Shown piece by piece: positions 30,452 through 37,824 of a stretch of DNA of 37,824 bases (position 1 is its first letter; every line of letters starts with the position of its first letter). This stretch comes from Pseudorhodobacter antarcticus (lineage in GTDB: Bacteria; Pseudomonadota; Alphaproteobacteria; Rhodobacterales; Rhodobacteraceae). Under the pieces are notes generated by a model. The model had not been told where the DNA came from, ran no database searches, and worked only from the letters and a program-made list of their open reading frames with translations. The stretch lies in the NCBI GenBank assembly GCA_945862465.1, contig CAMAYO010000018.1, forward strand, positions 1-37,824. Direction: 5' to 3'. The translations under genes and the position numbers were made by a program.

Positions 30452-30871
30452 CTAGGCCAAATCGGTTTGGGAAAAATCGTTCCCCTTGTAAAGCAGGGGC
30501 ACATCCCGAGATTTGGCACAGGCATACGCAAAGCAGTCGCCAAAGTTCAGGTCTGCCGCATGGCCAACGGCACGGCCGTAGGTCTGTGCGGTCACAATCG
30601 CCGCGTCCCCGATGGCGGCGGTGATCGTGACAGTCTCAGCCCGCACCTCTGCCAGCAGCAAGTCAACGGCAGTCTTAGCCGTCTCGATCTGCGCGGGCGT
30701 CGCTGAGCGATGCGTCCCAGAACGAGAACGGGCAAGGCTGATAACAGCCTCGAACCGACTAAGGGGAGAGAAGAGAGCGGGCTTTGTGCTTGCCCCAAGC
30801 AATTGGATCAAAGCATCCGCCCCCGGTTCGCGGTTGAGAATGGCAAGGATGGCGCTGGCGTCAAGAAACAT
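30452..30871 (-). CDS. vapC: VapC-type PIN-domain toxin
   Basis: This 139-residue PIN-domain ribonuclease shows the acidic active-site residues in order: D4 in MFLDASA, E41 in SRFEAVI, D112 in NFGDCF, and D132/D137 in the final GNDFSQTDL. VapC toxins cleave tRNA or rRNA when not held by antitoxin. The start lies 3 bases after the antitoxin stop, the usual vapBC order. The pair sits between rpmD and rplO, where ribosomal genes are normally contiguous. Length and active site look intact, so it is probably functional. Confidence 0.9.
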
Positions 30872-30874
30872 AAC

Positions 30875-31117
30875 TTAGCGCTCCCAAAGATCATCCATGT
30901 CGCGCTTGTGATCATAGGCTTGCATCACGGGGCCGATGGTATCGGCCAAGGCGCGAACCGCTTCAATGCGGTGCAGCAGGGGGATACGGCCCTTGGCTGT
31001 GGCGATTGCGGATTGCAAAGCCTGGCGCACGGCCTCTGTCTTGTTGGCCGCCCCTAGGATTTTAACGGCATCTGCAGCCAAATGGGTGACGTCTTGGTCC
31101 TTGATATAGAGCGGCAT
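30875..31117 (-). CDS. vapB: VapB-type antitoxin (Rv0623-like transcription factor family)
   Basis: This 80-residue antitoxin starts MPLYIKDQDVTHLAADAVK, and NKTEAVRQAL is the ribbon-helix-helix-like DNA-binding segment. The C-terminal half would bind the toxin. I chose the ATG at 31117 with AAAGGA upstream; the longer frame to 31171 runs through the promoter/operator. It is directly upstream of vapC. Confidence 0.87.
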   Translation of the reverse strand: MPLYIKDQDVTHLAADAVKILGAANKTEAVRQALQSAIATAKGRIPLLHRIEAVRALADTIGPVMQAYDHKRDMDDLWER

Positions 31118-31130
31118 GGGAAATTCCTTT

Positions 31131-31179
31131 GGGATATTCGGATATTCACTAAGGTATATCCCGCGCATCAAAATATCAA
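31131..31179 (-). promoter_or_regulatory. Candidate vapBC promoter and operator
   Basis: On the minus strand TTGATA (31174-31179) and TATACC (31153-31158) are 15 bases apart, a short spacer. The inverted repeat GGATAT...ATATCC (31140-31161) spans the -10 box and a second GGGATAT lies at 31131. This fits autorepression by the VapBC complex. Confidence 0.4.
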
Positions 31180-32998: not shown

Positions 32999-33011
32999 TC
33001 TACCCCTCCCC

Positions 33012-33404
33012 TTAGAATACGGTGCAAAGCACTTCGCCGCCAACATTGGCCGCGCGTGCATTTGCATCCGTCATCACACCCTTGGGGGTGGATAGAATGG
33101 CAATCCCAAGACCGTTCCGCACAGACGGCACGTCCTTGATCGAGTTGTAAACGCGGCGGCCCGGCTTGGACACGCGCTTCAACTCACGGATGACCGGGGC
33201 GCCTTCGAAGTACTTCAGGCTGATGGTCAGTTCGCCTTGACCGTTGTCGGTCTTGGCAGATTCATAGCCGCGGATGTAGCCTTCTGCGACCAGCACATCC
33301 AACACCCAGGCCCGCAGCTTGGAAGCCGGGGTCTTAACTGTGGATTTGCCGCGCATTTGGCTGTTGCGGATACGTGTCAGCATATCACCGAGGGGATCGT
33401 TCAT
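33012..33404 (-). CDS. rpsH: 30S ribosomal protein S8
   Basis: This 130-residue protein starts [19 protein letters not shown]. Three ATG codons run in tandem (33410, 33407, 33404). I chose the third because GAAAG is then 6 bases upstream and relatives begin MNDP. The C-terminal [20 protein letters not shown] motif is conserved. Confidence 0.96.
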
Positions 33405-33425
33405 CATCATCTTTCAGCGCTCCCC

Positions 33426-33731
33426 TTACCAGCTCGACTTAACCATGCCGGGGATCTGGCCGAACGAGGCGAGATCACGCAGCATGATACGGCTGAGCTT
33501 GAGTTTGCGGTAATAGGCGTGCGGGCGGCCAGTCAACTGGCAGCGGTTGTGAATACGGGTCGCTGAAGAGTTGCGCGGCAGGGCTGCCAATTTGGCGGTT
33601 GCCTTGAAGCGCTCTTCGATCGACTTGGTTTGGTCGTAGATCACCGTCTTAAGTGCGGCGCGTTTGGCTGCGTGCTGTTGCACGAGCTTGGCGCGCTTCA
33701 CTTCGCGGTTCACCATGGATTTTTTGGCCAT
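33426..33731 (-). CDS. rpsN: 30S ribosomal protein S14
   Basis: This 101-residue long-form S14 lacks the CxxC zinc knuckles of the short form. It contains [24 protein letters not shown] and ends GMVKSSW. It is in canonical spc-operon order. Confidence 0.98.
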
Positions 33732-33748
33732 TGTTGGATTCCTCGCGA

Positions 33749-34309
33749 TTAGGACGTGAAGGGCATTTTGAAGTGCTTCAGCAGCGACTTCGCTTCCGCA
33801 TCAGACTTGGCGTTGGTGCAGATGATGATGTCCATGCCCAGAACGTCGTCGACTTTATCAAAGTCAATTTCCGGGAACACGATTTGCTCTTTCAAGCCCA
33901 TCGCGTAGTTGCCATGACCGTCAAACGAGCTGCCCTTCACGCCGCGAAAGTCGCGAACGCGGGGAAGTGCGATTGTGATCAGGCGATCAAGGAATTCATA
34001 CATCCGGTCGCCGCGCAGCGTAACTTTGCAGCCCAGCGGCATAAACTCACGAACGCGAAAGCCAGCGATGGACTTTTTGGCGTTGGTGATGACCGACTTT
34101 TGGCCAGCAATCAGCGTCAACTGCTCGGAAGCGAGCTTGACCTTCTTGGTGTCCTTCACCGCATCGCCAACACCCATGTTGAGAACGATTTTCTCAAGCT
34201 TGGGGATTTGCATATCGTTCTTATAGCCGTGTTCGGCTTTCAGAGCGGCGCGGATCTTTGTGGCGTATTCCGCCTTCAGACGCGGGGTATAGGTGGCTTG
34301 GTCCAACAT
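33749..34309 (-). CDS. rplE: 50S ribosomal protein L5
   Basis: This 186-residue 5S rRNA-binding protein includes [17 protein letters not shown] and [18 protein letters not shown]. Its ATG shares one base with the rplX stop (TGATG), so the two are translationally coupled. Confidence 0.98.
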
Positions 34310-34614
34310 CAGATGGCCTCCCCGGTTGTCTTGGCGAAGCGCACTTTCTTGCCGTCTTCCATGCGGAACCCGACGCGGGTGGCTTTGCCGTTGGCATCAA
34401 CGATGGCAAGGTTGGACAGGTCGATCGGCATCGCCTTGGGGATACGGCCCCCTTGCGAATTCGGCGATTGCTTGGTGTGACGCACAGAGACGTTTACGCC
34501 ATCAATCACGGCCTTGTTGTCCTTGGGCGAGACGGCAGAGATTTCGCCCTGCTTGCCCTTGTCCTTACCGGTGAGAACGACAACCTTGTCGCCTTTTTTC
34601 AGCTTAGCGGCCAT
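34309..34614 (-). CDS. rplX: 50S ribosomal protein L24
   Basis: This 101-residue protein has the KOW motif [19 protein letters not shown] at the N-terminus and the INGVN-like segment [13 protein letters not shown]. Both ends overlap neighbours by one base. Confidence 0.98.
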
Positions 34615-34982
34615 CAGAGCACCTCCGGAGCCAGCGAGATGATCTTCATAAAGTTCTTGGCGCGCAGTTCACGCACAACCGGCCCGAAGATACGCGTGCC
34701 GACCGGTTCACCCTGATTGTTCAGGATGACGGCTGCATTGCGGTCAAAGCGGATGGTGGTGCCGTCTTCGCGACGAACTTCTTTGGCGGTGCGAACGACA
34801 ACTGCTTTACGCACATCGCCCTTTTTGACACGGCCTTTCGGAATTGCCTCCTTGACCGACACCACGATGATGTCGCCCACGGATGCATAGCGGCGGTGTG
34901 AACCGCCCAGAACCTTGATGCACTGAACCCGGCGAGCGCCTGAGTTATCAGCAACATCCAGATTGGTCTGCATCTGGATCAT
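34614..34982 (-). CDS. rplN: 50S ribosomal protein L14
   Basis: This 122-residue protein starts [19 protein letters not shown] and ends with [16 protein letters not shown]-like text ([16 protein letters not shown]). The start is in the ordinary place; a second ATG three codons later is not preferred. A 67-base spacer separates it from rpsQ. Confidence 0.98.
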
Positions 34983-35049
34983 TTAGTACTCTCCGACCTT
35001 TGAGGGCATATACCCCCAGGGTTTCGTTTCATTTCAAGACAATCAGCAC

Positions 35050-35289
35050 TCACGCAGTCGCGTCAGTGACAACCGTCCAGCGTTTCGACTTAGAAATCGG
35101 GGCGCATTCCTCGATGCGGACCGTGTCGCCTTCCTTGAACTGGTTCAAGGCGTCATGGGCACGGTACTTCTTGGATTTGCGAATGGTTTTTTGCAGAACG
35201 GGGTGCTTAAAGCGGCGTTCGACAAGAACGGTGATCGTCTGCTCGTTCTTGTCCGAGGTCACGACACCTTGCAGGATACGTTTGGGCAT
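35050..35289 (-). CDS. rpsQ: 30S ribosomal protein S17
   Basis: This 79-residue protein starts [19 protein letters not shown], with [30 protein letters not shown] precedes the ATG at 35289; the longer frame overlaps rpmC. Confidence 0.98.
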
Positions 35290-35299
35290 CGGTCTCTCC

Positions 35300-35500
35300 T
35301 TACTTCGCGGCTTCGGCGGCTTTTTGGGCCAGCACGGTACGGACACGGGCAACATCCTTACGGACCTTGTTCATGCGCGAGGTGTTCGTCAGTTGGTTGG
35401 TTGCTGCCTGAAAGCGCAGATTGAACGCTTCTTTCTTCAGCGCGACAAGCTGATCACGCAGCTGGTCGGGGGTCTTCGCACGCAGTTCTTGGGCGTCCAT
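35300..35500 (-). CDS. rpmC: 50S ribosomal protein L29
   Basis: This 66-residue protein starts [21 protein letters not shown], with the conserved [16 protein letters not shown] and RVRTVLAQK. It is the first ribosomal gene after the insertion that separates it from rplP. Its leader holds a strong hairpin and a candidate promoter. Confidence 0.97.
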
Positions 35501-35561
35501 ACGCCTTTTCCTTCTCTCAAGCACCAGACGGCCCCGAGGGTTACCGTTGATCTGGTGGATC

Positions 35562-35600
35562 AATACAAACCAACGATTCTGGCTAGGCCGGAATCGTTGG
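35562..35600 (-). terminator. Hairpin/attenuator-like structure in the rpmC leader
   Basis: CCAACGATTC pairs with GAATCGTTGG, and the inner TGGC/GCCG extends the stem to about 14 pairs with a 3-base loop. On the minus strand it is followed by TTTGTATT. It could end transcription from brnTA or act as an attenuator for rpmC. It also lies right after the candidate promoter at 35608-35636, so it could be the 5' hairpin of that transcript. A weaker pairing, CACCAGA/TCTGGTG, lies closer to rpmC (35523-35557). Confidence 0.6.
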
Positions 35601-35607
35601 ATGCCGC

Positions 35608-35636
35608 GCAATACAGGATGGGGTGGGGTGTGGCAA
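35608..35636 (-). promoter_or_regulatory. Candidate promoter upstream of rpmC
   Basis: On the minus strand TTGCCA and TATTGC are separated by 17 bases. The -35 is close to consensus and the -10 weak. It would restart ribosomal transcription after the insertion. Confidence 0.35.
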
Positions 35637-35684
35637 GGGGGAAGATGGGGGTGAGAAACAGTGCATCATCATCTTGCAGGGGGC

Positions 35685-35704
35685 GGTGCGTGAAAACACG
35701 CACC
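35685..35704. repeat. GGTGCG palindrome, copy 3 (after brnA)
   Basis: An 8-base arm GGTGCGTG pairs with CACGCACC around AAAA. It directly abuts the brnA stop codon. The core arms match copies 1 and 2 but the centre differs. Confidence 0.8.
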
Positions 35705-35938
35705 CTACCGCAACCGCTCCGCGATCCACATCTTAATCACTGACTGGCGCGTTACGCCCAAATGGCGCGCCTCACGGTCAAGGCCTTCGACGACCCATGC
35801 CGGAAAATCCACATTCACGCGCCGCGCTTCTAGATTGGGGCGGCGGGCTTTGCTGAGGTCAAAATAGGCGCTGACATCTTCGCCGTTGTCGAACTTTTCG
35901 TCCAACTCTTGAGCCGTGATGATCTTAACTGCCGTCAT
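35705..35938 (-). CDS. brnA: BrnA-type antitoxin
   Basis: This 77-residue antitoxin has a C-terminal ribbon-helix-helix-like DNA-binding region (RRVNVDFPAWVVEGLDREA to QSVIKMWIAERLR) after an acidic N-terminal half. In this system the toxin gene comes first, as seen here. GGAGG lies eight bases before the ATG at 35938. The start overlaps brnT by 14 bases, so the antitoxin is translated in coupling with the toxin. Confidence 0.85.
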   Translation of the reverse strand: MTAVKIITAQELDEKFDNGEDVSAYFDLSKARRPNLEARRVNVDFPAWVVEGLDREARHLGVTRQSVIKMWIAERLR

Positions 35939-36194
35939 AATAGGCAACCTCCTCTTGCCGCGCCCTTCGAACCGATATGATCCGGACGGACGTACCCCGA
36001 AAGGTGCAGATCGCCGTCCAATGCTTGCCGTCGATCCTTCCAATAGCAAGAAAGCGCAACTCGCCGGCTAAGTTAACCTTCGACATAGACTCGGCTAAGC
36101 CCTCATCCTGCCAAAGCGCCTGCGCCTCAACAAAGTCTATGCCATGCTTGGCCTTGTTGCTGGCGCTTTTGATCGGATCAAACTCGAACCTCAT
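35925..36194 (-). CDS. brnT: BrnT family toxin
   Basis: This 89-residue toxin of the BrnT family (RelE-like fold ribonuclease) starts MRFEFDPIKSASNKAKHGIDF, then has the FLAIGRIDGKHWTAICTFRG core and the conserved RIISVRRARQEEVAYY. It is the first gene of the brnTA pair and has its own promoter/operator in the 37 bases upstream. It lies in the middle of the S10 ribosomal operon. Confidence 0.9.
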   Translation of the reverse strand: MRFEFDPIKSASNKAKHGIDFVEAQALWQDEGLAESMSKVNLAGELRFLAIGRIDGKHWTAICTFRGTSVRIISVRRARQEEVAYYDGS

Positions 36195-36199
36195 GGGCC

Positions 36200-36228
36200 A
36201 AAATAGGATAGAATCTATCCCCTTTCAA
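36200..36228 (-). promoter_or_regulatory. brnTA promoter with operator in the spacer
   Basis: On the minus strand TTGAAA (36223-36228) and TATTTT (36200-36205) are exactly 17 bases apart. A palindrome GGATAGA-N-TCTATCC fills the spacer (36206-36220), ideal for repression by BrnTA. The -10 ends only 5 bases before the brnT ATG, so transcription from it would give a leaderless or nearly leaderless mRNA. Confidence 0.6.
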
Positions 36229-36231
36229 CCC

Positions 36232-36855
36232 CTACTCCCATTCGTAGTTGAAGCTCACCGAGATGCGCTCTTCTTCGGCCATGTTCATCGGCACTTCGTG
36301 GCGCAGCCAGCTTTCCCACAGCAGCACTTCGCCCACATTGGGCTTCACATAGACAAAGCTTTGCAATTCCTGCGCGGCCTTTTTCAATCGCAAGGGGGCA
36401 TGCATCATCATGGGCAGGCGGGGATCTTCAAGCTTCAGGGCCGAGGTGCCCTTGGGCATCGAGACATAGGTTGTGCCAGAGATCACCGAATGCGGGTGGA
36501 TGTGGCTGGCGTGCATACCGCCTTGGGGCAGAATGTTGATCCAGAACGACCCACATTTCAGCTTTTTGTCGCCCAGATCAAAGCCTAAATCCTTGCAAAA
36601 GGCCGCAACGTGCTTGTCCAATGCCTTTTCCAGATCGGCAAAGATCGGAAAGCGCCACGGCAGGTCGTTGAGAGATGCATAGCTGGTGTAGCCCGGATAG
36701 CCATTGGCTTCGCACCATTCCTGCCCGGCCTCGTCATCGTCAGCGATGGCTTCGCAGGCGGCTTTCAGTTCCTCATAGTCGACCTTCTTCTTACCCAGTT
36801 CTTTCAACTCGGCGCGGTACAAGCGGGTGACGAACAGGGGGGCGATTTCGGCCAT
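36232..36855 (-). CDS. 2OG-Fe(II) oxygenase family protein
   Basis: This encodes 207 residues resembling the uncharacterised 2-oxoglutarate/Fe(II) oxygenases of the type often called 2OG-FeII_Oxy_5/TIGR02466. The double-stranded beta-helix core includes FWINILPQGG, then the histidine-rich HASHIHPHS (candidate metal ligands among H115, H118, H120), SGTTYVSMP, EDPR, a distal His in SWLRHEVPM (H186), and R197 in ERISVSF as the likely 2-oxoglutarate anchor. The start is one of two tandem ATGs (36858 or 36855), with AAAGGA overlapping the previous gene's stop. The gene lies between rplP and rpmC. Its substrate is unknown; modification of a ribosomal component is a hypothesis from location. Confidence 0.8.
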   Translation of the reverse strand: MAEIAPLFVTRLYRAELKELGKKKVDYEELKAACEAIADDDEAGQEWCEANGYPGYTSYASLNDLPWRFPIFADLEKALDKHVAAFCKDLGFDLGDKKLKCGSFWINILPQGGMHASHIHPHSVISGTTYVSMPKGTSALKLEDPRLPMMMHAPLRLKKAAQELQSFVYVKPNVGEVLLWESWLRHEVPMNMAEEERISVSFNYEWE

Positions 36856-36866
36856 CATTTGTCCTT

Positions 36867-37244
36867 TCAAGTCCGGCAGAATCCGGCTGAAGCCACATAA
36901 CCCGTCTCAACCTGGGCCTTCAATCCAGAACGGTCCAGCCAAGCGCGGATTTCCGGCGTTATAGGGCCGAGAAAGGTGACGTGCGACAGTGCCGCAACGC
37001 CGTGCAGCGCCGTCATCTCTGGCCAAGTCATTGAGATGTCGTGATGACCGATCCAAGCTTTGGGCGTGGCATAGTCGATCACTGCGCGGGCCAGACCCGC
37101 GTCGGCACTTACAAAGAACCAATAGGATAGCACCCCACGCTCGCCCTCAGCCTCGACCCTTGCAGCCAAAGCCGTGATGGCAGTTTTGAAATCAGCCACA
37201 GATCCGCGCAGAGTGTAGGTATTGAGAATGGTCAAACCAGCCAT
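36867..37244 (-). CDS. Small protein of unknown function, possibly dimeric alpha/beta-barrel-like
   Basis: This encodes 125 residues without signal peptide or membrane helix. The pattern of strand TILNTYTLRG, helix VADFKTAITALAARVEAEG and strand VLSYWFFVSADAG, then DYATPKAWIGHH, recalls antibiotic-biosynthesis-monooxygenase-like ferredoxin folds, but I cannot confirm the family. The ATG at 37244 follows the terminator after rplP and has GAGG upstream. Its stop TGA runs directly into the ribosome binding site of the oxygenase gene. The two are therefore probably co-translated and may work together. Confidence 0.65.
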   Translation of the reverse strand: MAGLTILNTYTLRGSVADFKTAITALAARVEAEGERGVLSYWFFVSADAGLARAVIDYATPKAWIGHHDISMTWPEMTALHGVAALSHVTFLGPITPEIRAWLDRSGLKAQVETGYVASAGFCRT

Positions 37245-37253
37245 CGAAGCCTC

Positions 37254-37288
37254 AAAAAGAAAAAGCCCCCACCGTTTCCGGCAGGGGC
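37254..37288 (-). terminator. Intrinsic terminator after rplP
   Basis: On the minus strand a GC-rich stem (outer GCCCC/GGGGC, inner CCG/CGG) encloses a short loop and is followed by TTTTTCTTTTT. It is a textbook rho-independent terminator, placed between rplP and the inserted genes, inside what is normally a continuous S10 operon. Confidence 0.8.
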
Positions 37289-37299
37289 AATTCTGTAGG

Positions 37300-37318
37300 G
37301 TGCGCATTCATTGCGCAC
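37300..37318. repeat. GGTGCG palindrome, diverged copy 4 (after rplP)
   Basis: GTGCGCA pairs with TGCGCAC around a 5-base loop, preceded by GTAGG as in copy 1. It ends 5 bases before the rplP stop codon. It is a diverged member of the palindrome family in this operon. Confidence 0.6.
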
Positions 37319-37323
37319 GACCA

Positions 37324-37737
37324 TTACCAGTCTTCGCGAACAACAACGCGGGTCAGGACCGGCAGTTTCATGGCGCCAAGACGCAGGGCTTCACGCGCGA
37401 TTTCGTCGGACACGCCGTCGATTTCGAACATGATCCGGCCCGGTTTCACCTTGGCCGCCCAATAGTCGATAGCCCCTTTACCTTTACCCATACGAACTTC
37501 GACGGGCTTGGCAGTGACCGGCACATCCGGGAAAATCCGGATCCAGACCCGGCCCTGACGCTTCATGTGGCGGGTGATCGCGCGGCGGGCCGCTTCGATC
37601 TGACGCGCCGTCACACGTTCCGGTTCGGTGGACTTCAGTCCATAGGACCCAAAGTTCAACATAGAGCCGCCTTTGGCTTCTCCATGAATGCGGCCTTTGA
37701 ACTGCTTGCGAAACTTAGTGCGCTTAGGTTGCAGCAT
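37324..37737 (-). CDS. rplP: 50S ribosomal protein L16
   Basis: This 137-residue protein starts [19 protein letters not shown], with [18 protein letters not shown] and [17 protein letters not shown]. Arg82 in VRMGKGKG corresponds to the E. coli L16 arginine hydroxylated by the oxygenase YcfD. It is followed by a palindrome and a terminator rather than by rpmC. Confidence 0.98.
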
Positions 37738-37749
37738 TTATCTTCTCCC

Positions 37750-37824
37750 TTACGCGCGTTCGCGGCGCGGTTGGCGCGGTGCAGCGCCTTCCTGCGATTC
37801 CGCCTGACGACGGTCATGGGCCTG
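37750..37824 (-). CDS. rpsC: 30S ribosomal protein S3, C-terminal end (partial)
   Basis: Only the last 24 codons are in the window (QAHDRRQAESQEGAAPRQPR, then RERA and TAA). The charged, disordered tail and the position 12 bases before rplP identify the C-terminus of S3. The gene continues beyond the window end. Confidence 0.85.
   Translation of the reverse strand, partial: QAHDRRQAESQEGAAPRQPRRERA

Follow-up and report, generated by a model that had tools for sequence, protein, structure and literature searches.

A TIGR02466 oxygenase gene held between rplP and rpmC in the Rhodobacterales

Does a 2-oxoglutarate (2OG)/Fe(II) oxygenase that is encoded directly behind the gene for ribosomal protein L16 act on the ribosome, or is its position the legacy of an old insertion? 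The question is raised by a window of 37,824 nucleotides of DNA from Pseudorhodobacter antarcticus, which belongs to contig 18 of a draft genome (2.92 Mb, 92% complete). The original prediction took the oxygenase, together with a small gene in front of it, for a candidate ribosomal oxygenase system. The nearest relatives by the oxygenase within the set of named relatives (the best 80 of 377) are Rhodobacteraceae MAGs, with 98% and 96% identity.

The features of the locus are listed in Table 1. The basic description of the original prediction is confirmed: the oxygenase and the small open reading frame are both present on the minus strand, just behind rplP, the HASHIHPHS cluster, the distal His and the Arg are all found in the oxygenase, and Arg82 of L16 is found within VRMGKGKG. 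The open reading frame of the oxygenase opens at a TTG at 36870 and ends at 36232 on the minus strand, although an ATG at 36858 or 36855 is the likely start. L206, the closest relative, has an ATG at 36855, where its DNA similarity to the window picks up again. The stop of the small gene (36867) is 8-11 nt from these ATGs, and a sequence read by eye as an AAAGGA-like ribosome site lies between. The single PF00831 (L29) match in the genome is that of the rpmC at this locus, and no RNA family reached its gathering threshold in positions 33000-37824 of the window.

Table 1. Features in and around the gap between rplP and rpmC in the window
Feature	Position	Strand	Evidence and remarks
rplP (L16)	37324-37737	-	TIGR01164 5.9e-58; upstream border of the gap
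Intrinsic transcription terminator after rplP	37265-37288	-	10-pair stem then TTTTTCTTTT; z -3.56
124-aa protein, predicted ABM-like (dimeric alpha/beta barrel) fold	36867-37241	-	AlphaFold and Foldseek
2OG-Fe(II) oxygenase, TIGR02466/PF13759	36232-36858	-	Profile matches, PDB matches, invariant residues
BrnT-type toxin gene, bystander within the gap	35925-36194	-	PF04365 2.6e-21
BrnA-type antitoxin gene, bystander within the gap	35705-35938	-	NF047399 8e-38; start picked by eye
rpmC (L29), downstream border of the gap	35300-35500	-	ORF and position; start picked by eye

A BrnT/BrnA toxin-antitoxin pair sits between the oxygenase and rpmC. Relatives of BrnT were seen in the fetched neighbourhoods of 10 of the 80 named relatives (best 80 of 377). 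A second toxin-antitoxin module, PIN/Rv0623-like and of VapBC type, is present at 30452-31171, and both modules are within the ribosomal superoperon region.

The oxygenase is an ordinary member of a known, functionally uncharacterised family, in an unusually stable place. It is a full-length member of TIGR02466 (5.4e-82; 274.5 bits against a curated cut-off of 62.5) and also matches PF13759 (2OG-FeII_Oxy_5; 1e-35, 122.6 bits against a cut-off of 27), and its sole other Pfam match, PF13640, is weak (0.025). No difference from other TIGR02466/PF13759 members was found. The PDB sequence matches are 3bvc (2.1e-97) and 2rg4 (9.3e-97), from Roseovarius nubinhibens (ISM_01780) and Oceanicola granulosus, which are both titled uncharacterized and are 71% and 67% identical to the window oxygenase in a comparison of the model. 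The available portions of PMC9964418 and PMC10598087 contain no function test for the TIGR02466/PF13759 family.

An alignment of 78 sequences was made, 58 from the same bacterial family (the window included) and 20 from outside it, and residues were numbered from the TTG. His123, His125, His191, Arg202 and D149 are invariant in all 78, and His120 is conserved in 74. On this pattern the metal site would be H123-x-H125...H191, with R202 for 2-oxoglutarate. The usual metal motif of 2OG oxygenases is H-x-D, and PHD2 has a His-x-Asp...His triad. His-x-His stands where the usual motif has a carboxylate in 78/78 sequences, which makes it a property of the family and not something special to the window gene.

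An AlphaFold model of the oxygenase (pLDDT 77.8) was ranked by Foldseek closest to 3bvc and 2rg4, then to PolD, PHD2 and the Pseudomonas prolyl-4-hydroxylase (P4H), and HygX and the halogenase WelO15 were also matched. PHD2 and the Pseudomonas enzyme (4iw3, 4j25) have the closest fold with known protein substrates, with a TM of about 0.4-0.6, and 4iw3 is the P4H of Pseudomonas putida in complex with EF-Tu. It is possible, if unlikely, that the oxygenase hydroxylates another protein such as EF-Tu, as the Pseudomonas prolyl hydroxylase does, and that its ribosomal location is incidental. However, the structural similarity is weak, with identity of about 12-17% overall and of 12-15% for the matches to PHD2 and 4iw3 at a TM of about 0.6, and biosynthetic PolD ranks just above PHD2. 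The all-His motif is also unlike the His-x-Asp of PHD2 and P4H, a contrast between motifs as generally known rather than between residues aligned one by one.

The known ribosomal oxygenases are 2OG enzymes, according to the portions available of PMC4295552 and PMC4396695. YcfD, MINA53 and NO66, of the JmjC type (PF08007), are like the oxygenase in being 2OG/Fe(II) oxygenases, and the gene for L16, the substrate of YcfD, is a neighbour of the oxygenase gene. Their Pfam family differs from PF13759, and the oxygenase has no JmjC match. At about 205 aa it has no room for the additional dimerisation and winged-helix domains of YcfD (PMC4295552, available portion).

The cyanophage 2OG-Fe(II) oxygenases of phrog_81 belong to the same broad family (match at 6.8e-33). 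Distant relatives of the oxygenase are present in 216 of 50,697 phage records, all with less than 60% identity (24-31% among the 12 matches listed), and 210 of the 216 records are named Synechococcus, Prochlorococcus or cyanophage. A peptide-pattern scan found no close relatives in viral contigs. The available portion of PMC9964418 describes the cyanophage genes as auxiliary genes, of which some phages carry several.

Within the order, 231 of 292 genomes have a TIGR02466 match (229 above the cut-off); these represent 86 of 113 genera, and 61 genomes are without the gene. The neighbourhoods sampled were 60, of 13-15 kb, one per genus and from among the stronger matches listed, so that 26 matching genera lie outside the sample. 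The oxygenase is between rplP and rpmC in 52 of these, beside one of them in seven, and beside neither in one, giving 59/60 genomes linked to the junction. In the genus of the single unlinked genome, another genome (G012) has the oxygenase beside rpmC, by coordinates. The named relatives (best 80 of 377) give 66 between the two genes, 13 beside one and one beside neither, thus 79/80 linked. The linkage of a non-JmjC oxygenase to rplP/rpmC that was to be expected from the original prediction is therefore family-wide, and the neighbourhood is conserved far beyond this strain. The oxygenase is the only gene family found in all 52 two-sided gaps; the next separate family is in five. Four other clusters in 21-47 loci are apparently overlapping reading frames, by the coordinates of the rows shown. 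In the open-access listings for rplP/rpmC, Rhodobacter and the S10 operon, as far as these go, nothing on the rplP-rpmC gap was found.

One record, L222 (CP059262.1), is titled an Exiguobacterium profundum MAG and has a Rhodobacteraceae-like oxygenase (82% identity) near L29. It is probably a mislabelled or misassigned genome.

The strength of such linkage can be judged against rarA, a gene for an MgsA-type AAA+ ATPase with, to our knowledge, no ribosomal role. Of the 84 genomes with both positions listed, 68 have it no more than 30 kb from rpmC or the oxygenase, 15 have it on another contig (some perhaps broken assemblies) and one has it far off on the same contig; the 84 are what is left of 108 rarA genomes after removal of 24 for which no partner was listed. 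Passive retention near the superoperon is therefore common. The higher retention of the oxygenase (59/60; 79/80) is weak evidence of something more than passive retention, although the two samples are not alike and a gene placed within the superoperon may be less easily split off.

The orientation of the gene is not conserved. Of the 52 two-sided loci, 27 have it reading with rplP and 25 against it, and in all 59 linked genomes the numbers are 28 and 31. Near the window the orientation is steady: each of L206-L260, the first 55 of the 80 named relatives, has the gene in the direction of rplP. Parsimony on a ribosomal tree of 78 rows, 3 of 81 having been dropped with too few residues, gives 17 changes of orientation and 9 of presence. 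On trees of the 58 carriers there are 15 changes of orientation on either gene's tree. Support is weak on many branches; if only the starred ones are taken, the orientation label must still change 9 times, as counted against every other row. By parsimony the oxygenase has thus turned some 15-17 times, yet it has been kept to one gap between operons. No flanking inverted repeats that would explain the flips were found in 53 loci, where the longest exact match was 13 nt and the mean 9.3, against 8.7 in shuffled sequence.

A terminator-like hairpin is found behind rplP in 126 of the 148 loci examined, against about 8 in simple base shuffles. Split by the strand of the oxygenase, the counts are 85 of 100 same-strand loci, 27 of 31 opposite-strand loci and 14 of 17 loci that lack the gene (about 5, 2 and 1 in the shuffles), although the loci are not independent because many close relatives are among them. 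The custom scan found no such hairpin in the other 15 same-strand loci. In the window the terminator is between rplP and the small gene, and the small gene and the oxygenase are therefore probably outside the main rplP transcript. The scan of the window was overall not above chance (2 promoters against 1.1 expected; 2 terminators against 3.4 expected), and directly in front of the two genes it found nothing resembling a promoter. The case for the terminator therefore rests on the strength of the rplP hairpin and its recurrence. Judging by these hairpins, most of the Rhodobacteraceae examined seem to have a terminator behind rplP as the end of the S10 operon.

The situation outside the family is different. 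A search of the class gave matches at E <= 0.001 in 90 of 240 genomes, 56 above the cut-off, and three of the 90 are from the window's own family. A total of 20 non-family neighbourhoods were studied, mostly of the strongest matches and up to 19.5 kb (one of 4.1 kb), with oxygenases of 41-68% identity in 15 and 29-36% in five. L16, L29 or S17 was near the oxygenase in none of the 20, although the same queries were positive in 28 other alphaproteobacteria. In these 28 loci, which were those returned out of 55 non-family genomes, L29 and S17 are right behind L16 in every case, so that rplP and rpmC are contiguous, and the spacing from the L16 hit to the L29 hit is 11-93 nt. The neighbours of the non-family oxygenases include no convincing conserved gene as a clue to the substrate. 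The commonest is HisC-like by our own reading of the sequence, in 5 of 15 loci, three of them from one family.

Within the family, 20 of the 61 genomes lacking the gene were viewed. Both flanks were found in 17, with gaps of 112-614 nt in 15 and longer in two. These gaps, longer than the 11-93 nt between hits outside the family, and the contiguous flanks there agree with a single insertion and later losses. Most simply, the gene was inserted once, or the operon was split, in an ancestor of the family, and what followed was inheritance with some losses. The agreement of the oxygenase tree with the ribosomal tree is weak (r 0.28, against 0.26 for the best of 999 permutations and 0.52 between the two ribosomal halves), which leaves room for a degree of horizontal exchange. 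Recombination in the conserved flanks that carried the gap segment across could explain the weak agreement. In the trees, which leave out the named relatives nearest by the oxygenase (these carry the gene at the same place and strand), the window oxygenase is nearest to that of L105, and its ribosomal neighbours there are mostly without the gene.

It is in this light that the ribosome as a target has to be weighed. The proposal is of a second, non-JmjC ribosomal oxygenase that hydroxylates L16 at Arg82, or a neighbouring ribosomal protein, and whose location has been selected for proximity. The linkage across the family, the prolyl-hydroxylase-like fold shared with the Pseudomonas enzyme solved with EF-Tu, and the 2OG chemistry of the known ribosomal oxygenases are all consistent with it, as is the rarity of the YcfD family: PF08007 is missing from 268 of the 292 genomes. 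It was found in the other 24, with five of the matches weak. The expected absence of YcfD does hold for the window genome, where no PF08007 match was found at 92% completeness, but elsewhere all 24 PF08007 genomes also have TIGR02466. Replacement of YcfD by the oxygenase is ruled out by this co-occurrence, and 61 of the 292 genomes have neither family.

L16 itself provides a further test. Arg82 is Arg in 53/53 genomes with the oxygenase gene and in 17/17 without it. No column of L16, L29, S17, L14, L24 or L5 cleanly tracks the presence of the oxygenase; there are frequency differences alone. The strongest is column 54 of L16, with Met in 48 of 53 carriers and 4 of 17 non-carriers, and here the window has Ile. 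Residues tracking the gene were thus rejected as a signal in the six proteins, the differences being partial and lineage-like, and relatedness alone could give them. A search of the open-access literature found no paper on ribosomal hydroxylation in Rhodobacter by mass spectrometry.

The idea of an independent solution to the modification of L16 therefore fares badly, with a terminator separating rplP from the oxygenase, an orientation that is about even, and an Arg82 that is invariant in genomes managing without the gene. The inference from position is undercut by the 0/20 neighbourhoods outside the family and by rarA, an unrelated gene that is likewise kept near the superoperon. An oxygenase acting on the ribosome is in our view improbable. 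The more specific form of the idea, that TIGR02466 is a Rhodobacterales ribosomal oxygenase of prolyl-hydroxylase fold with an unusual all-His iron site, whose action on L16 or a protein of the adjoining operon has kept its gene locked in the gap over some fifteen inversions, seems more doubtful still.

The small upstream gene was proposed as a co-translated specificity partner, and it is instead sporadic. Its protein has no match in Pfam (E <= 0.1), NCBIfam or PDB sequences. An AlphaFold model from a three-sequence alignment has a best pLDDT of 85.6, the other four models being at 55-71, and Foldseek places it with 6fxd MupZ (2e-6), then SnoaB and several proteins titled 'antibiotic biosynthesis monooxygenase', with 27 PDB structural matches at E <= 0.001. 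The predicted fold is thus that of the ABM superfamily (SnoaB, MupZ, YgiN-like), although the Pfam sequence profile of ABM has no match to the protein at E <= 0.1. The gene is in nine of the 292 genomes of the order, the window's included and two being marginal, and in two of the 80 named relatives (best 80 of 377), L207 and L235, in each directly upstream of the oxygenase. A peptide scan of genomes found no relatives of it. L206 is without it despite an oxygenase 98% identical, and its DNA similarity to the window ends at 37246 and restarts at 36855, the flanks of the small gene. A role as a conserved partner is ruled out by this distribution. The small gene is a passenger, at most a local associate.

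That the two genes form a pathway of the lineage for the oxidation of a small molecule is very hard to credit: the shared strand, the 8-11 nt spacing, the adjacency in L207 and L235, and the fold of cofactor-independent oxygenases such as SnoaB speak for it, but the small gene is missing in 78 of 80 relatives, the six convincing copies elsewhere in the order are all without this oxygenase in the roughly 3.3 kb viewed, and other relatives occur elsewhere, for example on Sinorhizobium plasmids (about 59% identity; neighbours of other kinds at the one locus viewed).

The reading we prefer, to which we give a probability of roughly two in three (0.68), is an ancestral insertion into the gap between two operons, inherited with inversions and losses, and not a new ribosome-modifying system. 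The oxygenase would be the Rhodobacterales copy of a widespread alphaproteobacterial TIGR02466 oxygenase, which probably entered at the boundary of the S10 operon, ending with rplP, and the next ribosomal operon, starting with rpmC. Insertion was most simply a single event in the ancestor of the family, and the gene would since have been kept in the gap by inheritance, have flipped in orientation many times and have been lost in several lineages. It would be an independent transcription unit behind the rplP terminator, presumably with its own promoter, although the scan found none. The enzyme most likely binds Fe(II) with its all-His site (H123-x-H125, H191) and 2-oxoglutarate with R202, and would use O2 to hydroxylate its substrate. 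Given the fold, which is like that of prolyl hydroxylases, this substrate is most likely either a side chain of a peptide or protein or a free amino acid. The small gene would be an accessory ABM-fold gene of the lineage rather than a fixed partner. An oddity is that the oxygenase has almost never left the gap though it has been reversed there many times.

The ribosomal reading, if true, would add a new fold class for hydroxylation of the bacterial ribosome. On the insertion reading, a non-ribosomal enzyme can stay linked to ribosomal genes very widely, throughout a family, without the usual signs of functional coupling, which are a shared strand, a shared transcript and linkage elsewhere. The rarA control provides a first yardstick for such claims of linkage.
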